Shown: piece after piece, positions 40,782 to 41,477 of the stretch
How the letters are laid out: the number at the start of each line of letters is the position of its first letter
Numbering within the stretch: the stretch's first letter is position 1
Origin: Baia soyae
GTDB taxonomy: Bacteria > Bacillota > Bacilli > Thermoactinomycetales > Thermoactinomycetaceae
NCBI RefSeq assembly: GCF_004341445.1
Contig: NZ_SLXV01000002.1
Location: 62,001 to 126,000 of the forward strand
Direction: 5' to 3'
Length of the DNA stretch: 64,000 nt
Position numbers and translations under genes: made by a program
Notes under the pieces: generated by a model
Databases searched by the model: none
Told to the model about the DNA's origin: nothing
The model's input: the letters and a program-made list of their open reading frames with translations, nothing else

Positions 40782-40840
40782 AGTGGTGATCTCCTTTTAT
40801 TTTTCTAAAGAGTGAAACTTTTTTGGGGTGGTTGGTAGAG

Positions 40841-41060
40841 CGAATGCATCGGGGCATGTATCTGACCACAACTCAAATAGTGAGCCCGCAAAGATGTGGA
40901 AAAGCAAGTCCGCTCCGTCCTTCTTCACTTCGGGCAAGTGGCAAAACTCGCGAAGAACACGCTCAAACATTGCCACAAAACGCCCTTGCTTCGAAGCACT
41001 ACGCTAAGCAGGCTCACTAACATCGCTTTGGTCAGATACATTGCCCCTGATACATTTTCG
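40841..41060. repeat. Structured element copy 1 (about 200-220 nt)
   Basis: The ends pair: GGGGCATGTATCTGACCA (40851-40868) with TGGTCAGATACATTGCCCC (41029-41047), one bulged base, and further outward pairing of 40841-40850 with 41048-41060. Nested helices: TAGTGAGCC (40878-40886) with GGCTCACTA (41011-41019), GGGC (40932-40935) with GCCC (40982-40985), and GTGGCAA (40938-40944) with TTGCCAC (40970-40976). The apical loop contains ACTCGC and GCTCAAACA. No convincing gene overlaps. The copy at 41235 shares the loops and core but uses different paired bases. Confidence 0.8.
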
Positions 41061-41234
41061 ATTACTGAGTTGTTAATAGGATAAAAACAGGCCAGAAAAA
41101 AGAAAGAACGAAAAAGACAAAAATAAGACGGAAAATAGGATGGAAACAAAAATGGAAGAGAAGAAGAAGCTCTCTATATACTCTACCACTCTCTACTGAG
41201 CAAGTCTGTTTGATGGATGTGGATTAGGGGGAAA
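41048..41234. other. Spacer between the two inverted copies
   Basis: About 187 bases. The stretch 41079-41170 is strikingly purine-rich on the plus strand (runs of A with G and few pyrimidines). I found no ORF, terminator or clear promoter in it. Confidence 0.5.
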
Positions 41235-41432
41235 GGAGAGTCTGTCTGTTCGATTACGGCGATGTTAGCGATCCTACCTAGCGAAGTTTTCCGTAGTGTA
41301 GGGCGTTTTGGTGCAACATGTTTGAGCGTTCTTTGCGAGTTTTGCACCTGCCCGAGCGGAGGAGGACGTAGCGGACTTCCCCACTTCTCTGCTGGATCGG
41401 TATTGAGCAGTAAGCGAACAGATAGACTCTCC
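41235..41432. repeat. Structured element copy 2, inverted relative to copy 1
   Basis: The ends pair: GGAGAGTCTGTCTGTTCG (41235-41252) with CGAACAGATAGACTCTCC (41415-41432), all pairs if one G-U is allowed. Read on the minus strand it aligns with copy 1: AAGTCCGCT, CGTCCT, CTCGGGCA, AAAACTCGC, AAGAAC, GCTCAAACAT, AAAACGCCCT and CTAACATCGC are shared. Helices are preserved but with changed bases: GGTGCAA/TTGCACC (41349-41343, 41316-41310) and CGATCC/GGATCG (41399-41394, 41274-41269). Confidence 0.8.
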
Positions 41433-41477
41433 GGCCCTCGATCATTCAACCACCAGCCTTACTCAATCCTTACTTCC

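Follow-up and report, generated by a model that had tools for sequence, protein, structure and literature searches.

The element bcr1 is a dispersed repeat of about 155 bp in the Bacillus cereus group that has been reported to be mobile and is predicted to form an RNA structure. Bacterial MITEs, including Correia/NEMIS, RUP and ERIC, have been reviewed (PMC2229807), and a second group of repeats, the REP and REPIN-BIME elements, is accompanied by RAYT transposases (PMC3116915, PMC2817692). BRE, a dispersed intergenic repeat of about 90 bp in beta-proteobacteria, was found through an sRNA and is described in a paper that also cites bcr1 (PMC3110155). A pair of inverted elements from Baia soyae, located in a window of 64,000 nucleotides (the whole stretch of DNA that was analysed), is compared here with these systems. 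The reading preferred for it, at a probability of roughly 0.72, is that of a MITE-like element moved in trans, which carries a selected, strand-specific fold with retention on the host side, most likely as an RNA structure.

The two copies and their repeat family

The original prediction placed two copies of about 200 nt in opposite orientation at 40851-41047 (197 nt) and 41235-41432 (198 nt), and the sequence bears out these coordinates (Table 1). The helices and constant segments quoted for them are present as well, with the qualification that helix TACCGATCC/GGATCGCTA contains one C-C mismatch. The core of copy 1 is made up of a junction helix, the covarying helix 3, an apical hairpin with a GUUUGAGCG..GCGAGUUUU loop, and an AGCGGAC segment. 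When compared with dinucleotide shuffles, the fold of copy 1 has z values of -6.7 and -7.1 on the two strands and that of copy 2 values of -5.2 and -6.6. Beyond these two copies, the next-best match in an unfiltered covariance-model search of the 64-kb window has an E value of 0.2. A scan around the pair and in the 41048..41234 spacer gave no match to a sigma-70-like promoter or intrinsic terminator consensus.

Table 1. Features of the paired elements, in window coordinates
Feature	Position	Strand	Remarks
Copy 1, hairpin element of type A, 197 nt	40851..41047	-	folded (RNA-like) sense minus; folding z -7.1
Copy 1, conserved core	40871..41026	-	full-length match to covariance model R2 (131.5 bits, E 8e-31)
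Spacer of the A-B unit	41048..41234		both folded strands would read outward from it
Copy 2, type B hairpin element, 198 nt	41235..41432	+	folded sense plus; folding z -6.6
Copy 2, conserved core	41259..41408	+	full-length match to covariance model R2 (128.2 bits, E 5e-30)
Left flank, expected site of outer terminal repeat (GGCTTGTTGATTAG type in other copies)	40800..40850		degenerate, no target duplication visible; flank comparison
Right flank of copy 2, degenerate outer repeat region	41433..41475		flank comparison

Copies 1 and 2 are subtypes A and B of one high-copy repeat family. Searches of the host genome returned 45 places with copy 1 as query and 43 with copy 2, the two sets overlapping, and about 30 full copies of type A and about 15 copies of type B are present there. 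A covariance-model search, as had been proposed at the outset, recovered more copies both in the host genome and in other Bacilli; matches to the model number about 57 in the host and 69 and 16 in two congeners, and these congeners are the only ones among 40 relatives with matches at the DNA level. The two types are about 75% identical in their common core, the difference between them lying in the outer arms. Most type B copies are adjoined by an A partner or an A remnant in the fixed order A(+) ... B(-), with spacers ranging from 61 to 722 bp, and degenerate B remains are found beside several seemingly single A copies.

Two single units may be described separately. One A-B unit (L016, 778-1501) encloses, in place of the short spacer, an open frame that is PhnB/glyoxalase-like by eye. 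Another (L030 in G000, L078 in G002) is inverted relative to the same flanks between two species, with the outer repeats as breakpoints. A second apparent inversion (L031/L077) was dropped, as its two copies are not each other's best match.

Fold, strand and conservation in place

For the analysis of covariation, 64 A and B cores were aligned with MAFFT under one common structure. Paired cells account for 96.9% over the 64 copies, cells changed on both sides number 118 against 33 in shuffles, and the pairing score collapses when partners are slid by one base. Covariation is strongest in helix 3 (columns 31-37 with 115-122), one pair of which is seen as CG, UG, GC, AU and UA. In a wide alignment of several families, itself fitted to the model, 19 of 23 pairs contain double changes, and the score is 0.64, with slid controls at about 0.1. 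The compensatory helix changes noticed originally in two sequences are thus in excess of chance, and the selection on a fold deduced from them is upheld by covariation in both alignments, the further copies of the 64-core alignment covarying as well.

G-T pairs and A-C mismatches stand at 80:15, 55:5 and 17:5 in three alignments. Since G-T pairs far outnumber A-C mismatches and the consensus folding energy prefers the strand that this excess also favours, one strand is taken to be the folded one. This is minus in copy 1 and plus in copy 2, the latter in agreement with the sense that was mildly favoured in the original prediction, and would be directed outward from the spacer in A-B units generally. 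Copies in the window's genus avoid intervals between divergent genes (3 of 64 copies, as judged with a crude ORF caller). Relative to tandem neighbour genes, the folded strand of type A runs in the same direction in 11 cases and in the opposite direction in 19, and that of type B in 3 and 11, respectively. A role in the 3'-UTR of the upstream mRNA was considered and rejected; because the folded strand is not co-directional with the neighbouring genes, such a simple role is argued against.

Covariation could also arise if palindromes were maintained neutrally, with template switching correcting one arm from the other, so that it would reflect mutation bias rather than selection. Long palindromes with internal deletions do exist in this family, and the outer stems covary in both types A and B, as such a process would allow. 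An excess of G-T over A-C is not expected from template switching, however, yet a clear one is seen; moreover, the inner helices covary while the unpaired loops stay fixed across families, and the elements are conserved far better than their flanks. This explanation is considered very improbable.

Conservation at orthologous sites was examined in species whose syntenic DNA is roughly 85-90% identical. In seven orthologous type A copies, identity is 90.7% within the element (22 gap columns) and 64.1% in the flanks, at 80 bp per side (246 gap columns), in a comparison that includes only pairs recognisable in both species and is biased upward. As the ortholog is in most cases the best cross-genome match, copying from paralog to paralog does not easily explain this conservation. 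Internal deletion is found at some sites and represents a route of decay. Since hairpin bodies are conserved at orthologous sites although the ends have decayed, a host-side role now seems to be what keeps many copies where they are.

Terminal repeats, target duplications and movement

The closed genome G039 contains units of about 260 bp, reaching 310 bp where an insert is present, that are bounded by imperfect terminal inverted repeats (CAGGGCTGTTGATTAAC on the left and TAATCAACACGCCTG on the right; CAGGGCTGTTGATTAAC...CGCCTG). The end type of the element is CAGGG(C)TGTTGATTA. Over 15 copies in G039, the two flanks, compared across 9 bp, agree at 101 of 135 positions (shuffled mean 40.6, maximum 65), and six of these copies possess a 9/9 flanking duplication. 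These 9-bp duplications are the strongest single evidence of transposition. In G036, a genome from a different family that holds 89 copies, near-identical copies with sharp ends lie in unrelated flanks, the end motif was found 258 times, compared with 3 hits for the control, and internally deleted copies of about 60-195 bp keep both ends and little else. The congener G032 holds 2 copies; three tested copies of G036 are absent from its syntenic stretches, at a divergence that precludes base-exact junctions. Related copies have their transposon ends outside the 197-nt hairpin, and in the window's genus GGCTTGTTGATTAG-type ends flank the copies in degraded form, with no target duplication visible. 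A 2-bp TA duplication was the first idea, taken from G036, where flanking dinucleotides match in 13 of 23 copies, several of them TA; it gave way to the 9-bp signal of G039, which is cleaner.

Two further features of G036 were observed. About half of the copies read (L153, L159, L161 and others) contain an insert of about 55 bp, TAGCGAGACCGGGGAGCGCAAGCGACCCAGGCGAGACTTGTGCTCTGTGAGTGCA, near the 3' side, which is tandemly repeated in some copies. Many copies on contigs C10, C12, C14, C15, C16, C19 and C26 are located within about 400 bp of contig ends, which suggests that the repeat breaks assemblies.

Searches with DDE_3 and DDE_Tnp_1_assoc identified no transposase with matching ends. An IS630-type partner was rejected, as DDE_3 genes are found only in G036, G039 and G041 of eight genomes and the element ends are absent there. 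An ISAs1-type partner, suggested by the CAGGG ends, was likewise rejected; of two weak hits in G039, neither has matching ends, and one, read as an ORF, resembles another transposase type.

Strong covariation together with conservation in place would also be expected if each copy were a stand-alone small RNA gene, or an RNA regulating its neighbour, that had been duplicated passively and was not a transposon. Such a gene would not account for terminal repeats with 9-bp duplications, for the excess of end motifs and the deletion derivatives, or for numbers that vary from 2 to 89 copies within one genus, with syntenic sites that do not contain the element, and this possibility is regarded as improbable.

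The main rival to an RNA structure is that the functional form is single-stranded DNA, the fold of which would be recognised by the machinery of transposition, replication or recombination while the element lies exposed in single-stranded form, without any function as RNA. In its favour, the long outer stem is almost perfectly paired, one A-B unit has opposite orientations relative to its flanks in two species, and G-T wobble is tolerated in DNA too. GCGNAGC, an unusually stable DNA mini-hairpin, is also found in the apical motif of many relatives. On the other hand, the 9-bp target duplications indicate double-strand cut and paste, and selection for movement leaves unexplained why copies with decayed ends are conserved in place. 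A purely single-stranded DNA function is judged unlikely.

A mobile element with a retained RNA fold remains the preferred reading. On this reading, a non-autonomous (MITE-like) mobile DNA element would be present in the window as one old copy, with copy 1 as its A half and copy 2 as its B half, and the terminal inverted repeats and 9-bp target duplications point to a putative cut-and-paste transposase that acted in trans. Between the ends, a long outer stem is predicted to surround a multi-branched core with covarying helices and with loops conserved across Bacilli. As the ends decayed in the window's genus, the hairpin bodies would have been retained at orthologous sites, the fold having probably been recruited or retained as an RNA structure. 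Within RNA presumed to originate from read-through or unrecognised promoters, this structure would most likely serve in processing, in stability or in the binding of a protein. The original prediction had named a structured RNA or a MITE-like hairpin; the family carries both, a conserved fold and terminal inverted repeats with 9-bp duplications, with a putative action as RNA.

Distribution and comparison with known systems

Matches to the covariance model are found in 15 of 42 genomes of the order. With a wider model, the core was identified in 61 of 399 sampled Bacilli genomes, representing 28 of 146 genera, where no more than seven candidates were scored in any genome; one carrier is Lihuaxuella thermophila (Thermoactinomycetaceae). 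In the rest of the phylum, 2 genomes among about 397-398 sampled gave hits, all of them weak. A comparison with Rfam 15 yielded no match at the gathering score in the window and none up to E 1 for the element, and no similar DNA was found in plasmid and phage collections. No description of the sequence was found in the open-access literature searched, consistent with the initial failure to assign the repeat to a named family, and the element may represent a kind of mobile structured element that has not been described so far.

The apical motif TGTTTGAGCG-N(1-8)-GCGAGTTT extends beyond Bacilli. Among the matches listed in a scan of GTDB genomes, it occurs in many phyla, at the tip of long hairpins in Proteobacteria, Bacteroidota, Clostridia and others (L221-L300), and a stem of at least 6 bp surrounds it in 74% of 77 listed hits, compared with 4% when partners are shuffled. 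A clear full core is found only in Lihuaxuella among the matches listed, the others being weak and for the most part covering the apical hairpin. Of 15 contigs tested, none matches Rfam at the motif. It may be suggested, very tentatively, that the element belongs, as a member spread through Bacilli, to a superfamily of mobile structured elements that has yet to be described. The apical motif of this superfamily, UGUUUGAGCG-N(1-8)-GCGAGUUU, would be the one seen at the tip of long hairpins in Proteobacteria, Bacteroidota and Clostridia as well, and a partner protein or activity shared between phyla would then be implied. Six of 15 viral contigs with the motif (L337, L343, L344, L346, L350, L351) share one intergenic stretch, TTACGGGGGTAAAT...GCGCCAGTGTTTGAGCG, which in the two contigs read is located upstream of a gene resembling a filamentous-phage replication protein. 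This sharing may be due to chance or to a common feature of single-stranded DNA.

On a unit that demonstrably moved by transposition, a core of 150 nt has retained its covarying helices and its fixed loops throughout a class of bacteria. Mobile DNA and conserved structured RNA would thereby be united in one element, which would offer tens of test loci per genome and the seed for an RNA family missing from Rfam 15.

Among the known systems, REP and REPIN-BIME elements resemble the present element in their inverted palindrome pairs, intergenic location and high copy number, but REPs are palindromes of 20-40 bp with a GTAG-type tag, whereas units here are about 260 bp and bear 9-bp duplications; REPs are not known to be associated with such target duplications. 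BRE is likewise a dispersed intergenic repeat, and hits to the apical motif in Comamonadaceae could be BRE; outside Bacilli, however, it is mainly the apical hairpin that is common and not the full core. The element bcr1 is similar in being dispersed in Bacilli, reported mobile and predicted to form an RNA structure, but is reported to be specific to the B. cereus group. The element behaves like MITEs, which are also roughly 100-300 bp long, non-coding and mostly intergenic, with terminal inverted repeats, target duplications and predicted long stem-loop transcripts. The element has terminal inverted repeats at defined ends in G039 and G036, degenerate in the window's genus, and is non-coding and dispersed, with a length of about 260 bp and 57-89 copies per genome in the richest genomes. 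Its target-site duplication is 9 bp in the cleanest genome, G039, and no partner insertion sequence was found for it in the DDE_3 and DDE_Tnp_1_assoc searches. Miniature transposons usually lose their internal resemblance fast, whereas the internal multi-branched core is here deeply conserved across families of a class. The element is distinct from ordinary MITEs in this deeply conserved, strand-specific fold, which is conserved at old, immobile sites.
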